From contig NZ_CCBB010000001.1 of NCBI RefSeq assembly GCF_000613185.1, forward strand, positions 1,860,001-1,924,000: 64,000 bases of DNA, given 5' to 3'. This document shows positions 43,026 through 48,740 of this stretch, piece by piece. The stretch is from Mycolicibacterium cosmeticum. Lineage in GTDB: Bacteria; Actinomycetota; Actinomycetes; Mycobacteriales; Mycobacteriaceae. The first letter of the stretch is position 1. Each line of letters opens with the position of its first letter. Below the pieces are notes generated by a model. That model was not told where the DNA came from. It saw nothing but the letters and a program-made list of their open reading frames with translations, and did not search any database. Made by a program: the position numbers and the translations under genes.

Positions 43026-44403
43026 ATACCGTTTCGCCCTCATCGGAGGTCTTGTCGATTCGCTTGGCCAGGTACAGCGCTTCCAGGGCCAGCTCCACCG
43101 CCGCGGCCCGTTCACCGTCGTTGGTGGCCCCGAGCCGTTCGGCGATCGCGTCCAGCACCGGCAGATCGGGCAGCGCGGCCAGTACGTCCTTGGCGCTGAC
43201 CCGCTCACCCGTGGTCACCGGTGAGCCGTCCTCGACGGCGGCCACCAGCGGCCCCACGTCGATACCGCCCAGCGCCCGCGACGCGGTGTCGGCCGTCGCC
43301 CGGCGCAGCAGATGCTCCAGCACCACCTGCTCGCGGCCTTCCTCGCCGGATTCGAATTCGAGCTTGCCGCGCAGCACGTCGATCACGGTGCCGAGGTCGA
43401 CGACGCGGGCCACCGGCTCCTGTTCGCCGAGGACGGCCCCGCGGTGCCGGGCGGACGCGGCCACCGTCTCGGCTGCGGCGATCGCGAACCGCGCCGAGAC
43501 GCCGGACCGCTGGTCGATGGCGCTGGACTCGCGCAGCGAGCGGGCGAACCGGGCGACGATCTGCAGCAGGTAGTCGGGCACCGGGGCGCTCAGGTGCGCC
43601 TCCTGCCTGATGACGGCCACCTCGGCGGCCAGCTCGAGCGGATAGTGGGTGCGGATCTCGGCGCCGAACCGGTCCTTGAGCGGGGTGATGATGCGGCCGC
43701 GGTTGGTGTAGTCCTCCGGGTTGGCACTGGCGACGACGAGCACGTCGAGCGGCAGCCGCAGGGTGTAGCCGCGGACCTGGATATCGCGCTCCTCCATCAC
43801 GTTGAGCATGGCCACCTGGATGCGCTCGGCGAGGTCGGGCAGCTCGTTGACGGCGACGATGCCGCGATGCGACCGCGGGATCAGGCCGTAGGCGATGGTC
43901 TCGGGGTCGCCGAGGCTGCGCCCCTCGGCCACCTTGATGGGGTCGATATCGCCGACCAGGTCGGCGACGCTGGTGTCGGGCGTCGCGAGCTTCTCGGTGT
44001 AGCGCTCACTGCGGTGCCGCCACGCGATGGGGAGGTCGTCCCCGACCTCGGCGGCCCGGCGGATCGATTCCGGGGTGATGGGGCTGTAGGGGTGTTCACC
44101 CAGCTCAGAGCCGGCGATGACGGGCGTCCATTCGTCGAGCAGACCGGCCAGTGAGCGCAGCAGGCGGGTCTTGCCCTGTCCGCGTTCACCCAGCAGCACG
44201 AAGTCGTGTCCGGCGATCAGGGCGCGTTCGACCTGGGGCAGCACGGTGTCCTCGAAACCGAACAGCCCGGGCCAGATGTCGTCGCCCGTGGCCAGCCTGG
44301 CCAACAGATTTTCCCGGATCTCCTGCTTGATCCCGCGCTCGACATGACCGGAAGCACGCAGCTCGCCGACGGTGCGGGGCAGATCGTTAGGTGACGTCAC
44401 CAC
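43018..44403 (-). CDS. MoxR/magnesium-chelatase-type AAA+ ATPase (Rv0958-like)
   Basis: The 461-residue ATPase has Walker A GERGQGKT (72-79), a Walker B-like GIVAVNELPDL, sensor 1 in VVASANPEDYTNRGRIITPLKDRFG and an arginine-finger region. This is the layout of the ChlI/MoxR branch. It is the first gene of the pair with the VWA protein, with overlapping ends, so both are made together and likely form one complex. The N-terminal start (GTG or ATG at 44403) is the longest option before the divergent esterase gene. Confidence 0.9.
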   Translation of the reverse strand: MVTSPNDLPRTVGELRASGHVERGIKQEIRENLLARLATGDDIWPGLFGFEDTVLPQVERALIAGHDFVLLGERGQGKTRLLRSLAGLLDEWTPVIAGSELGEHPYSPITPESIRRAAEVGDDLPIAWRHRSERYTEKLATPDTSVADLVGDIDPIKVAEGRSLGDPETIAYGLIPRSHRGIVAVNELPDLAERIQVAMLNVMEERDIQVRGYTLRLPLDVLVVASANPEDYTNRGRIITPLKDRFGAEIRTHYPLELAAEVAVIRQEAHLSAPVPDYLLQIVARFARSLRESSAIDQRSGVSARFAIAAAETVAASARHRGAVLGEQEPVARVVDLGTVIDVLRGKLEFESGEEGREQVVLEHLLRRATADTASRALGGIDVGPLVAAVEDGSPVTTGERVSAKDVLAALPDLPVLDAIAERLGATNDGERAAAVELALEALYLAKRIDKTSDEGETVYG

Positions 44404-44473
44404 TCCACGCTACGACTGCTGCCGAGTGCCGGCATGGTCACCTGGATTTTCCTCGCCGGAAGTACCCAGTACC

Positions 44474-45496
44474 ATGGGTACCGTGAATTCGCTCGAATGG
44501 CGCGACCGGCCGACCACCGTGCAGTTCGGCCCGGCCTGCCGGCAATCCCGATTGCTGGGTGTGCTGACCGCGATCTCCCTGCGCACCGTGCTGGGGATCG
44601 CCACGATCATCGGCCTCATCGTCAACAGGGTGTGGCCGGCCGGCCTGCAGCGGGCGCATCTGGATGTCATCGACAAGCCGCTGCGGTTCATCCCGGCCCT
44701 GCCCGGCACCAGCCTCACCCCGGAGCGGCTGCCGCACTGCCCGGCCGAGTGGGTCGTCGCACCGAATGCCCGCGACTCCGATCGGGTGATCGTCTACTTC
44801 CACGGCTCGGCGCTGGTGACCCTCGGCCTCAACTCGCACCGGCGGTTCGCCTCGAAGCTGTCCGAGGCCACCGGTTCTCAGGTGTTCAACGTCGGGTACC
44901 GGTTGGCGCCGCAGGCCAGCATCGAGGAGGCCGTCGAGGATGGCCTGGACGCCTACCGGCACGTGCTCTCGCTCGGATTCACCCCGGATCGCGTTGTGCT
45001 GGCCGGTGATTCGGCCGGTGGGCTGATGGCCGCCGATACCGCGCTGGCGATTCGCGATGCCGGCCTGCCGGTGCCCGCCGGTCAGGTTCTGCTGTCGGCG
45101 CTGACGTCAGCGGACATGCAGCTGAAGTACGCGGCGCTCAAGGAACATGTGGATGTGCTGTTCCCGTTCATGACCGTCAAGTTCATCTACGACGTCTTCG
45201 CCACGGTCAACGGCACCCGGCCGGTGCCGATCATGCCTTCTGAGGCGAACATGAGCGGACTGGGCCCGTTCCTGTTGCAGATCGGCACCAACGAGATGCT
45301 GCGCAACGACACCTTCACCCTGGCCGACCGGCTGCAGGCCGACGGTGTCCCGGTGTGGGTTCAGGTGTGGGACAAGGCGATGCACATGTTCCAGTTGTCC
45401 TTCGACGTGAATCCCGACGCCCGCCGCGCGGTCGAGGAGATCGCGTCGTTCGTGGAGTACGTGACGACGCCGGCGCGGGACGAGGCCACCGCCTAG
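44474..45496 (+). CDS. Alpha/beta hydrolase (HSL/lipase family)
   Basis: The 340-residue protein has the hormone-sensitive-lipase pattern. The oxyanion motif is YFHGSAL (110-113 HGSA instead of HGGG), the nucleophile is Ser180 in GDSAGG, and the acid/His appear late in IGTNEML and DKAMHMFQ. A hydrophobic stretch near residues 28-52 may be a membrane anchor, so it is probably an envelope-associated esterase or lipase. Starts are possible at ATG 44474 or GTG 44483. It diverges from the MoxR-like gene. Confidence 0.85.
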   Translation: MGTVNSLEWRDRPTTVQFGPACRQSRLLGVLTAISLRTVLGIATIIGLIVNRVWPAGLQRAHLDVIDKPLRFIPALPGTSLTPERLPHCPAEWVVAPNARDSDRVIVYFHGSALVTLGLNSHRRFASKLSEATGSQVFNVGYRLAPQASIEEAVEDGLDAYRHVLSLGFTPDRVVLAGDSAGGLMAADTALAIRDAGLPVPAGQVLLSALTSADMQLKYAALKEHVDVLFPFMTVKFIYDVFATVNGTRPVPIMPSEANMSGLGPFLLQIGTNEMLRNDTFTLADRLQADGVPVWVQVWDKAMHMFQLSFDVNPDARRAVEEIASFVEYVTTPARDEATA

Positions 45497-45503
45497 CGTC
45501 GAG

Positions 45504-45532
45504 TGGCCAGTTATCGCACGCATTCTGGGATG
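45504..45532. repeat. 29-nt direct repeat, left copy
   Basis: This stretch matches 46465-46493 at 28 of 29 positions. Read in one frame it encodes EWPVIARILG, the exact C-terminus of the nuclease downstream, although no gene ends here. It begins 7 nt after the esterase stop. Confidence 0.85.
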
Positions 45533-45627
45533 GTCGACGATCCACACCCGCGGATTCATCCACAGGGTCGGCTGTGCACAGGTGTCGACGCGCGAGATCC
45601 GTCCGCCTACGCCGACATATTGGCGTC

Positions 45628-46494
45628 ATGGTGGCACATCCCTTCGTGGGGACCGAGGCATTGGCCCGCGGCATTGTCGGTCGGCGAAGTCTGCGCACGC
45701 AGAACACCCCGATCTACCGGAATGTGTATCTGCCCCGAGGAGTTGACGTCACCGCGGCGACTCGTGCCGAGGCCGCGTGGTTGTGGTCCGGCCGAACCGC
45801 CATCGCGGGAGGACTGTCCGCGGCCGCGCTCTACGGCACGCGCTGGATCGGGGCCGACGAACCCGCGGAGTTGTACCGCACCAACGGAAAGCCGGTCAGC
45901 GGCATCCTCATCCATCGGGACACGCTGTACCCGGACGAAATCGGGTCGGCGTCGAGCATCCCGGTGACGACACCGGCTCGCACCGCATTCGATCTGGGTC
46001 GGCGGCGCGGCACGACGCTCGCCGTGACGCGGATCGACGCGCTCGCTCAGGCGACCGGGGTTCGGGTGTGCGATATCGAACCACTCATCGCGCGCCATCG
46101 GGGAGCGCGAGGATTGGTCCAGCTCCGCGAAGTCCTCGACCTGGTCGACGGCGGCGCCGAGTCGCCTCAGGAGACCAGGACCCGGCTCGTGCTCGTCGGC
46201 GCCGGATTGCCGCGGCCCAGCACGCAGATCGTGGTTCGGCGCTATCGCATCGACCTCGGCTGGGAGCAATTCAAGGTCGGTGTCGAGTACGACGGGGAGC
46301 AACACTGGAAGGACGCCCGACAGCACGCCCGCGATATCGATCGACTGGCGGAATTGTCCGCATCGGGTTGGCGCGTCATTCGCGTCAGCGCAGAAATCCT
46401 ACGCAACCGGCGCCACGTGATCGTGGAGCGAACCTGTGCTGCACTGCGCGAGGCAGGTGCCGAATGGCCAGTTATTGCACGCATTCTGGGATGA
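45628..46494 (+). CDS. DUF559 Vsr/EDxHD-like endonuclease with AbiEi-like N-terminus
   Basis: The 288-residue protein has an N-terminal region like AbiEi-type antitoxin domains (YRNVYLPRGV, AIAGGLSAAALYGTRW, TTPARTAFDL). The C-terminal DUF559 nuclease domain (about 180-288) carries candidate catalytic residues E182 (PQETRTRL), D209 (RIDLGW), E220/D222 (VEYDG), H226 (QHW) and D236. This is the Vsr-like EDxHD fold also found in homing endonucleases. Mycobacteria carry many such genes of unknown role. Here the gene is bracketed by near-identical 29-nt repeats and followed by an inverted copy, which suggests mobility. The start at ATG 45628 is where relatives begin. Confidence 0.8.
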   Translation: MVAHPFVGTEALARGIVGRRSLRTQNTPIYRNVYLPRGVDVTAATRAEAAWLWSGRTAIAGGLSAAALYGTRWIGADEPAELYRTNGKPVSGILIHRDTLYPDEIGSASSIPVTTPARTAFDLGRRRGTTLAVTRIDALAQATGVRVCDIEPLIARHRGARGLVQLREVLDLVDGGAESPQETRTRLVLVGAGLPRPSTQIVVRRYRIDLGWEQFKVGVEYDGEQHWKDARQHARDIDRLAELSASGWRVIRVSAEILRNRRHVIVERTCAALREAGAEWPVIARILG

Positions 46495-46512
46495 AGCGTG
46501 TAATAACTGGCC
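46465..46512. repeat. 29-nt direct repeat, right copy, plus inverted copy
   Basis: Positions 46465-46493 repeat the left copy. In addition GGCCAGTTATTGCACGC (46466-46482) pairs with GCGTGTAATAACTGGCC (46496-46512) at 16 of 17 positions around a 13-nt loop. The hairpin overlaps the last codons of the nuclease gene and ends 8 nt before the purH stop, so it may also end transcription from both sides. Confidence 0.85.
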
Positions 46513-46519
46513 GGTCGAC

Positions 46520-48088
46520 CTAGTGGGCGAAGTGCCGCGCCCCGGTCAGGTACAGCGTGATCCCCGCCTTCGCCGCCGCCTCGGTCACCACGTCGTCACG
46601 CACCGAACCACCCGGGTGCACAATCGCTTTCACACCCGCGTTGGTCAGGGTTTCCAGGCCGTCCGGGAACGGGAAGAAGGCATCGGAGGCCGCGACGGCG
46701 CCCTTGACCCGGTCACCGCCACGTTCCACTGCCAACCGGGCGGCGTCCACCCGGTTCACCTGACCCATACCCACTCCCACGGTGGCACCGTCGGCCGCGA
46801 CGACGATGGCATTCGATTTCACCGCACGGCAGGCCCGCCATGCGAACACCAAGTCGGCCAGCGTCGCCGAATCGGCGGGCTCGCCGGTGGCCAGCGTCCA
46901 GTTGGCCGGGTCGTCGCCGGGGGCGTCCAGCGCATCGCGCTCCTGCAGCAGCAAGCCGCCACTGATCTGCCGGAATTCAACGCCGCTGTCCTGCGGCTCG
47001 GAGGCGACCAGGATGCGGATGTTCTTCTTACCGGACAGGATCTCGACGGCGCCTGGCTCGTAGGCGGGCGCGACGATCACCTCGGTGAAGATGTCGGCCA
47101 CCGTCTGCGCCATCTCCACGCTGACGGTGGTGTTGGTCGCGATGACCCCACCGAACGCCGAAAGCGGGTCGCATTCATGGGCTTTGCGATGCGCGTCGGC
47201 CACCGACACCGACGAGACGGCGATACCGCACGGATTGGCGTGTTTGATGATCGCCACACAGGTCTGCTCGTGGTCGAATGCGGCCCGCCAGGCGGCATCG
47301 GCGTCGGTGTAGTTGTTGTAGGACATCTCCTTGCCGTGCAACTGCTCGGCCTGCGCCAACCCGGGCCAGCCGGCATCGTTGCGGTACAGCGCCGCGCCCT
47401 GGTGCGGGTTCTCGCCGTAACGCAGCACCGCGGCGCGATGCCAGGTGGCACCCACCCACTGCGGCGGGGCGTCCGGACCTGCACCGTCTTCGGGCGCCAA
47501 CACCGAGCCCATCCAGCTGGCCACCGCGACGTCGTACTCCGCGGTGTGCCGGAATGCCAACGCCGCCAGCCGCTTCCGCTCGGCGAGCGTGAAACCGCCG
47601 GACCGCACCGCGGCCAGTACGCCCTCGTAGCCGAGCGGGTCGACCACCACGGCCACGCTGGGATGGTTCTTGGCGGCGGCGCGCACCATGGATGGTCCGC
47701 CGATGTCGATCTGCTCGACGCACTCGTCGGGCGCCGCGCCGGAGGCCACCGTCTCGGTGAACGGGTAGAGGTTGACCACCACCAGCTCGAACGGCGCGAT
47801 GCCCAGATCCGCCAGCGCCGCCTCGTGCTCGGACTTGCGCAGGTCGGCCAGCAGGCCGGCGTGCACCTTCGGGTGCAGGGTCTTCACCCGGCCGTCGAGC
47901 ACCTCGGGGAAGCCGGTGACGTCCTCCACCGGGGTGACCGGAACACCGGCCTCGGCAATCGTTTTCGCGGTGGAGCCCGTCGACACGATGCTCACGCCCG
48001 CGTCGTGCAGCCCGCGGGCCAGCGCCCCCAGACCCGTCTTGTCGTACACGCTGATCAACGCGCGCCGGATCGGCCGCTTATCACTCAT
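46520..48088 (-). CDS. purH: Bifunctional AICAR transformylase/IMP cyclohydrolase
   Basis: The 522-residue protein has the N-terminal cyclohydrolase domain ([56 protein letters not shown]). The C-terminal AICAR transformylase domain has [19 protein letters not shown] and a closing [11 protein letters not shown]. It carries out the last two steps of IMP synthesis. The ATG at 48088 is preceded by purN 10 nt upstream, so purN-purH is an operon. Confidence 0.96.
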
Positions 48089-48098
48089 CGCTGCATCC

Positions 48099-48740
48099 TC
48101 AACATCCGAAGGTCGCCTTTCGCCCGGTCCAGGTGAGGCCGCGGGTGGCCACCGCGGCGAGCACGTCCACCAGCAGTCGCCGTTCGACCACCTTGATGCG
48201 TTCGTGCAAAGTTTCTTCGTCGTCATCATCGAGCACGGGCACGGTTTCCTGCGCCAGAATCGGCCCGGTGTCGGTCCCGGCATCGACCAGGTGCACGGTG
48301 GCGCCCGTCACGCGCACGCCGTAGTCCAGCGCTTCGGCGACGGCCCGCGCGCCCGGGAAGGCCGGCAGCAACGCCGGATGGGTGTTCACCACACGCCCTT
48401 CGAAGCGCGAAAGGAATTGGGGACCAAGAATTTTCATGAACCCCGCGCTGACGACGAGATCGGGTTCGTGGCGCGCCACCGCATCGGTGAGCGCGCTGTC
48501 CCAGGCGGCCCGGTCGGTGTGGTCGCCGAGTCGCACGGTGAACGACGGCACCCCGGCGCCCGCGGCGATCTCCAGCGCACGGCACGCCCGATCGGTGCCG
48601 ACGGCGACCACCTCGCCCGGATAGTCGCCCCCAGCGGCCAGCAGTGCCTCCAGCAGGGATCCGGTACCCGAAGCCAACACCACCAGCCGCGACGGCGCGG
48701 TCGGAGGCACCCTGATCGGGTCCCGGAGCGGGGGCTGCAC
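48099..48740 (-). CDS. purN: Phosphoribosylglycinamide formyltransferase
   Basis: The 213-residue protein has the PurN pattern: [16 protein letters not shown] for phosphoribosyl binding, [13 protein letters not shown] with the catalytic Asn/His, and [21 protein letters not shown] with the catalytic Asp. It formylates GAR with 10-formyl-THF. I chose the GTG at 48740 ([13 protein letters not shown]), which aligns with the M. tuberculosis start as I recall it. It follows the DUF6350 gene by about 10 nt and precedes purH. Confidence 0.95.

Follow-up and report, generated by a model that had tools for sequence, protein, structure and literature searches.

Why should a gene for a DUF559 nuclease lie between two nearly identical repeats, in the space that separates an esterase gene from purH? 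The question is raised by a stretch of 64,000 nucleotides (nt) from Mycolicibacterium cosmeticum (NCBI RefSeq assembly GCF_000613185.1, contig NZ_CCBB010000001.1, positions 1,860,001 to 1,924,000), the whole of which is called the window below. An earlier note, made from the sequence alone, took the locus for a possible selfish element. The finding is larger than that note reported, in that the locus is one member of a large family of palindromes bracketing DUF559 genes. We propose, with a probability of about 0.52, that the gene and its two palindromes form a single mobile unit of about 1 kb, comparable to repetitive extragenic palindromes (REPs) and their REP-associated tyrosine transposases (RAYTs), with a Vsr-type nuclease driving the movement. 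The parts of the unit and its neighbours are as follows.

45498..46519, + strand: the whole element (5′ palindrome, gene, 3′ palindrome); the junction measures 12–15 nt, without palindrome, in G172, G222 and G030
45498..45538, + strand: 5′ (left) palindrome in degraded form, with its first arm and spacer but no second arm; a direct repeat of the right copy
45628..46494, + strand: DUF559 nuclease gene, 288 residues; predicted AbiEi-like N-terminal part and Vsr/EDxHD-type nuclease domain
46459..46519, no strand assigned: 3′ (right) palindrome; inverted half-sites (GAATGGCCAGTTATTGCACG on the left) flanking a 15-nt spacer; encodes the C-terminus EWPVIARILG
44372..45496, + strand: flanking alpha/beta hydrolase (esterase-like) gene, Abhydrolase_3, outside the element
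46520..48283, − strand: flanking purH (AICARFT/IMPCHase; PF01808 and PF02142), convergent, outside the element

A nuclease gene between matching palindromes

The 29-nt near-identical repeat described in the earlier note is real, and is contained in a longer match of 45500–45532 to 46461–46493 (31 of 33 positions identical, spacing 961 nt). Its first 17 nt, allowing up to three mismatches, occur at three sites in the window: the left copy, the right copy, and an inverted copy at 46496–46512. Shuffled sequence gave a mean of 0.08 sites, and three were reached in none of 100 shuffles. The inverted copy is therefore present as claimed, but it is not a separate feature: together with the right copy it makes a single palindrome of about 61 nt (46459–46519), and the surrounding 46455–46525 has a fold energy of −41.3 kcal/mol (z −7.75). 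On a two-arm palindrome score the right copy reaches 29/30 and the left copy 18/30, and the spacer ATTCTGGGATG is common to both. Because G278 has both arms at the orthologous place, the left copy is regarded as a palindrome that has lost its second arm. The gene ends inside the right copy, as had been noted, its last ten codons (EWPVIARILG) lying within the first arm and spacer; the left copy would encode the same peptide. The bases 3′ of 46519 read CTAGTGGGCG. An Rfam scan of 45400–46700 gave no match at the gathering threshold. CTAG occurs at both ends (45493–45496 and 46520–46523) and was considered as a target duplication, but several relatives have a TGA or TAA stop codon on the left, and it is therefore taken as chance.

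Sequence comparison demonstrates that the pairing of gene and palindromes is general. In 30 DUF559 loci (one per genome, best first), a palindrome of the window's type, called here clade-1, is found upstream of the gene in 24, at the stop codon in 26, and at both in 23. Only 4 of 89 control stretches score as high; all four come from the zone 640–900 nt 5′ of the gene (G201, G255, G020 and G021) and look like further palindromes. At three of the 30 loci (L253, L254, L256) the places upstream and at the stop codon are taken by a variant palindrome that resembles TGTGGGCTTG or TGTGGACTTG. In 24 of the 30, the start of the 3′ palindrome's core precedes the end of the stop codon by 42 nt; the stop thus falls in the second arm, and the C-terminus is spelled by the palindrome itself (e.g. 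EWPVIARILGDRVA). The 5′ palindrome lies about 90–160 nt before the start codon in most of them. The thresholds used here and below (palindrome score 22/30, match scores 14 and 16) were set after seeing the data.

A test that assumes no motif gave the same picture. The sample was 92 loci (80 named loci and 12 of the window's genome), of which three had too little flank, leaving 89 mycobacterial loci. In 74 of 89, the zone preceding the gene has a match of score at least 14 in the zone at the gene's end; the corresponding counts are 306 of 2225 for pairs taken across loci and 4 of 88 for downstream zones. When either orientation is allowed and the score raised to at least 16, matching 5′ and 3′ repeats occur at 81 of 89 DUF559 loci against 4 of 133 other genes of the same loci. 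Ungapped inverted repeats (score at least 11) are found in 34/92 of the 5′ zones and 41/92 of the 3′ zones, with 0 and 1 respectively in shuffles, and 4/77 and 3/77 in distant zones; the palindromes are therefore often imperfect. In G226, two clade-1-like DUF559 genes with an internal stop (L089 and L249) still have at least one palindrome, and are interpreted as decaying elements.

Subclades of the nuclease demonstrably carry palindromes of their own, for example CGAACGTCGACTTGTTG, CGCGAAAGTGCAACTGG, GCCGAAACTGAACTTATG and CGAGCAGACGCAAAATCGC, a correspondence assessed by eye and by an own-locus test. They are about 56–61 nt long, with tips that in those inspected are mostly GCCGA or GCGAG. 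Three distant DUF559 genes (L165, L166 and L063, 27–31% identical to the protein P0001) have palindromes that all begin GAGCAGAC. Within single clade-1 elements the spacers of the two palindromes are at least 80% identical in 6 of 23 cases, three of which are exact matches; when spacers of different elements are compared, 6 of 506 comparisons reach that level. On sequence, the pattern is like that of two ends created together in a single event and diverging afterwards.

The gene itself is intact. DUF559 (PF04480) matches the 288-residue protein with 33 bits (cut-off 20.6), and a Pfam scan at E ≤ 1 yields only MTES_1575, DUF559 and AbiEi_1, with no match to an HUH/Y1 transposase domain. In the predicted fold, residues 1–174 are AbiEi-like and are joined to a nuclease domain of the I-Bth0305I/Vsr type (residues 179–278). 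The top structural match of the model is the homing nuclease domain of I-Bth0305I, and both the EDxHD catalytic fold and its residues are present in the predicted structure, in agreement with the relationship to Vsr and EDxHD nucleases previously suggested for DUF559. A sequence search of solved structures gave one insignificant match, and an NCBIfam scan one weak match, far under its cut-off. A search of viral folds gave partial matches, several of them phage DUF559 proteins. Phages and plasmids were considered as carriers and rejected: P0001 is matched by seven plasmid records, all below 60% identity, and one phage record. At least one DUF559 relative is present in 296 of 297 genomes of the genus, and 12 in the window's genome. 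Annotation usually lists relatives of the protein as antitoxins or assigns them no known function.

Dispersal and empty sites

The palindromes are also demonstrably dispersed without the gene. When 61 genomes were searched with the window's stretch, the palindrome alone matched at several places in G020, G021 and G034. Half-sites with at most two mismatches exceed the reversed control in G020 (45 against 13), G021 (61 against 15), G034 (25 against 15) and G033 (13 against 5); in most others of the 24 genomes tested the excess is small or nil. The paired pattern (fixed spacing, at most three mismatches) is present in 63 of 297 genus genomes, at most 24 times in any one of them, and the control count is zero throughout. 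The search for the 17-mer that had been suggested earlier finds a single exact copy in the window's genome. Relatives have dispersed palindromes of its family, and palindromes of this family do flank other DUF559 genes. Clade-1 palindromes occur in 25 of the 26 genomes with a clade-1 nuclease (the exception being G226) and in 38 of the 271 others, a comparison that ignores kinship and in which a clade-1 nuclease is one with E ≤ 1.7e-111 (the next being 9.1e-107), a limit set by eye after seeing the data. Three genomes (G148, G165, G296) have 9–14 clade-1 palindromes and a best DUF559 match far from clade 1; these could be orphaned copies or copies with a retained host function.

The CGAGCAGACGCAAAATCGC type (type-2) is found in 65 of 98 genus genomes, with no control matches. 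Its half-site counts are highest in G006 (59 forward, 57 reverse); the type is absent from G000, and brackets a DUF559 gene in G121. Among the solitary copies fetched, the stem variant GCAGAATCGC predominates in G121 and GCAAAATCGC in G006. Within each of these two genomes (L377–L396) the stem variant is mostly uniform, while the spacers differ yet are often self-complementary. Such uniformity is a sign of homogenisation or of strong selection.

Presence and absence at orthologous sites are demonstrated first by the esterase–purH junction, a check that the earlier note had recommended. Among 30 loci around the 3′ end of the esterase gene, both esterase and purH could be read in 24; a DUF559 gene lies between them in 13 (tblastn E ≤ 1e-8) and none in 11. 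The gene is therefore not carried by all relatives. Clade-1 elements occupy the junction in G000, G278, G034, G211 and G120, and other DUF559 types (39–44% identity), in both orientations, occupy it in further relatives. Matching ends, mostly of other sequence, were found at 13 of 15 DUF559 loci at the esterase gene, two loci without purH included; the two that did not match are L168 in G310 and the window's own locus (L167), which was measured from an upstream start codon. In G310 the esterase end is 97% identical to that of G000, and the adjacent DUF559 protein, without matching ends, is only 41% identical; a different type beside a near-identical esterase suggests that elements turn over among close relatives. 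Gene-free junctions without palindrome measure 15 nt (G222), 12 nt (G172) or 13 nt (G030, counted between the stop codons). Solitary palindromes of two different types, without a gene, lie at the same junction in G202 (L170) and G118 (L193).

The same is seen elsewhere. The flanks of the 11 other DUF559 loci of the window's genome were sought in five genomes, and for 9 of the 11 the gene is absent at the same place in a relative, the flanks being separated by 254–578 nt instead of about 1300–1400. This holds for L156, L159 and L166 in G310, for L156, L157, L159, L161, L162 and L165 in G278, and for L156, L157, L159, L160, L161 and L164 in G202, with several again in G222 and G120. Two loci are left out of the count: L163, for which G120 offers a weak case at 573 nt, and L158, whose flanks are not adjacent in G120 and G222. 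Other relatives are occupied at these loci; gaps of occupied size are found in G310 for L157, L158, L160, L161, L163, L164 and L165.

Two of the empty junctions in G278 are clean to 3–4 nt (pairs L156/L290 and L162/L293), and that of L166 in G310 (L166/L289) has a 4-nt overlap, with the tip GCCGAGCAG in both. At the other gene-free sites 12–16 nt remain, or there is an unlike hairpin; the pair L160/L298 yielded no legible junction. A general target-site duplication was considered and rejected, since one 4-nt overlap, two leftovers of 3–4 nt and others of 12–16 nt follow no rule. The L157 site has a solitary cognate palindrome in G202 (L296) and half a palindrome in G222 (L303). From its sequence, the L159 site in G310 looks like an internal deletion that has kept the 3′ palindrome. 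At six gene-free sites (L287, L291, L297, L299, L302, L304) the flanks enclose a long hairpin that does not resemble the cognate palindrome; these are possibly terminators or further palindrome families.

Weighing the readings

The empty junctions, the dispersed palindromes flanking other DUF559 genes and the homing-nuclease-like fold together support well the original suggestion of a selfish element. The outcome that the earlier note had named as speaking against mobility, with the gene at this locus in all relatives and no empty sites, was looked for and did not appear. We infer that the nuclease binds and cuts the palindrome, and drives movement. The protein, probably as a dimer, would recognise the palindrome through its AbiEi-like part, and the Vsr/EDxHD-type domain would cut or nick the DNA. 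Units of palindrome, gene and palindrome, and sometimes palindromes alone, would then reach new sites, often between convergent genes. Later decay would remove arms and genes and leave solitary palindromes. The logic would be that of the REPtron (a RAYT gene plus REPs), run by an unrelated enzyme.

Several observations weigh against this proposal. The genomes are related, and the association of gene and palindrome was not corrected for phylogeny. No consistent target-site duplication was found among the compared empty and occupied junctions of the DUF559 loci of the window's genome. The AbiEi structural match has a high root-mean-square deviation (5.7 Å over 165 residues). Finally, G148 has 14 solitary palindromes and its best nuclease match is only E 3.5e-68; since solitary palindromes occur without a clade-1 nuclease, something else, such as termination, may account for their persistence.

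The best of the alternatives, although still unlikely, is a free-standing homing endonuclease gene. The solitary palindrome would then be the target or empty site, and repair would copy palindrome, gene and palindrome into the cut palindrome. It fits the structural match to I-Bth0305I, which is reported in PMC3943268 to form a dimer on a target almost 60 bp long, close to the length of the palindrome, and it fits the solitary palindromes at the window's junction (G202, G118) and at the L157 site (G202). Furthermore, clade-1 palindromes behave as two conserved half-sites: among 107 distinct copies the two columns that the motif leaves free do not covary, and one other column has z 6.2, so that hairpin structure as the sole constraint is not supported in this clade. 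It does not fit the gene-free sites that lack a palindrome (L156 in G278 and G202, L162 in G278, and the window's junction in G222, G172 and G030), and the many genomic targets should harm the host unless cutting were restricted.

It is rather improbable that the nuclease is a passenger, with palindromes spread or kept by other means (a role as bidirectional terminators, say) and DUF559 genes settling beside them. Elements do lie between convergent genes more often than expected (37 of 76, against 55 of 256 control pairs; a crude gene caller based on third-position G+C content, GC3, was used and 16 of 92 loci were excluded), and solitary copies without a clade-1 nuclease would be natural. Among 44 type-2 palindromes several columns covary (z 3–7), as expected of a hairpin that is kept; base pairing may thus matter in type-2 and is unsupported in clade 1, as far as can be judged from sets that were gathered by consensus, which biases fixed columns, and left uncorrected for relatedness. 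However, a passenger would not account for matching ends at each gene that differ between nuclease subclades, nor for the link of palindromes to the cognate nuclease, and no T-tailed terminator (a G+C-rich hairpin with loops of 3–8, then a T run) was found in 45400–46700.

A slightly poorer prospect again is an autoregulated locus resembling a toxin–antitoxin system, in which the AbiEi-like part binds the 5′ palindrome as operator and the 3′ palindrome is a terminator. According to PMC3985639, AbiEi binds its own promoter at inverted repeats that are 11 bp long and extend to 23 bp; residues 1–174 are predicted to resemble AbiEi, and the distance of the 5′ palindrome from the start codon would suit an operator. 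This leaves unexplained the matched 3′ copy, the dispersed copies and the presence or absence of whole units, and neither neighbour (the Abhydrolase_3 hydrolase or purH) has a Pfam match to AbiEii. That the left copy is a relic of a lost sibling gene, as the earlier note had offered, or of a tandem duplication is barely credible in spite of the shared C-terminal peptide, given that G278, G034 and G120 have a complete palindrome 5′ of the gene at this junction and that matching 5′ repeats are general in the family.

Relation to known systems and breadth

The mobile unit proposed here is most readily compared to RAYT/REP systems. As described in PMC2817692, these share the arrangement of one gene between two palindromes (here in the 81 of 89 loci, the window's left one being degraded), the dispersed cognate palindromes that follow the group of the enzyme, with the gene correlating with repeat number, and a gene reported to evolve faster than its neighbours. 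The nuclease here is 68–69% identical to that of G278, while the neighbours, in the parts seen, are 87% (esterase) and 94% (PurH) identical; on these sequences it seems to evolve fast, and separate insertions at one junction would give the same picture. The differences are that RAYTs are transposases of the IS200/IS605 type (HUH/Y1), in place of the Vsr/EDxHD-type fold predicted here, and that REPs have a GT(A/G)G head, whereas the palindromes here, of about 56–61 nt, mostly start GCCGA or GCGAG.

EDxHD homing endonucleases such as I-Bth0305I differ in that the DUF559 gene is intergenic, is bracketed by its presumed recognition sites and has an AbiEi-like N-terminal part; some gene-free sites hold a solitary palindrome and others none. 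AbiEi antitoxins of type IV toxin–antitoxin systems differ in that the AbiEi-like part is here fused to a nuclease, without AbiEii nearby, and that the repeats are on both sides and dispersed. We know of no Vsr or TnsA nuclease encoded in a single-gene unit bracketed by palindromes. Dispersed stem-loops in a mycobacterium were catalogued in 2008 in M. tuberculosis (Myt-1 and others, PMC2267715). Some solitary palindromes may already be catalogued among them; 'transpos' is absent from that text. No description of palindrome-bracketed DUF559 elements was found in the open-access literature, most subscription journals being outside its scope.

The arrangement extends beyond the genus. In other genera and families of the order, matching ends were found in 17 of 20 DUF559 open reading frames of 269–309 residues, selected by length and not by repeats; this count takes direct or inverted matches while its control takes direct ones only (1 of 19 measured), and it includes one locus that also matches its own control zone (L338) and one at threshold (L351). 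In other families of the class, 23 of 30 loci were considered (seven from the order itself being excluded) and three had too little flank; of the remaining 20, matching ends occur in 19 against 3 of 20 controls, and at a score of at least 18 in 18 against 0.

These observations point to mobile DNA of a kind that seems not to have been described before, with a homing-type nuclease as its motor. Whether it amounts to a class of mobile elements widespread in Actinomycetes, combining a homing-type nuclease, an AbiEi-like DNA-binding part and cognate palindromes of about 60 bp, convergent with the REPtron and a main source of dispersed mycobacterial palindromic repeats, we regard as an even bet. 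If so, bacteria would have a form of mobile DNA whose enzyme lies outside the usual DDE, tyrosine, serine and HUH groups, the dispersed mycobacterial palindromes would be explained, and the logic of the REPtron would have evolved at least twice. The natural variation would also offer many pairs of nuclease and ~60-bp target from which to read a recognition code.
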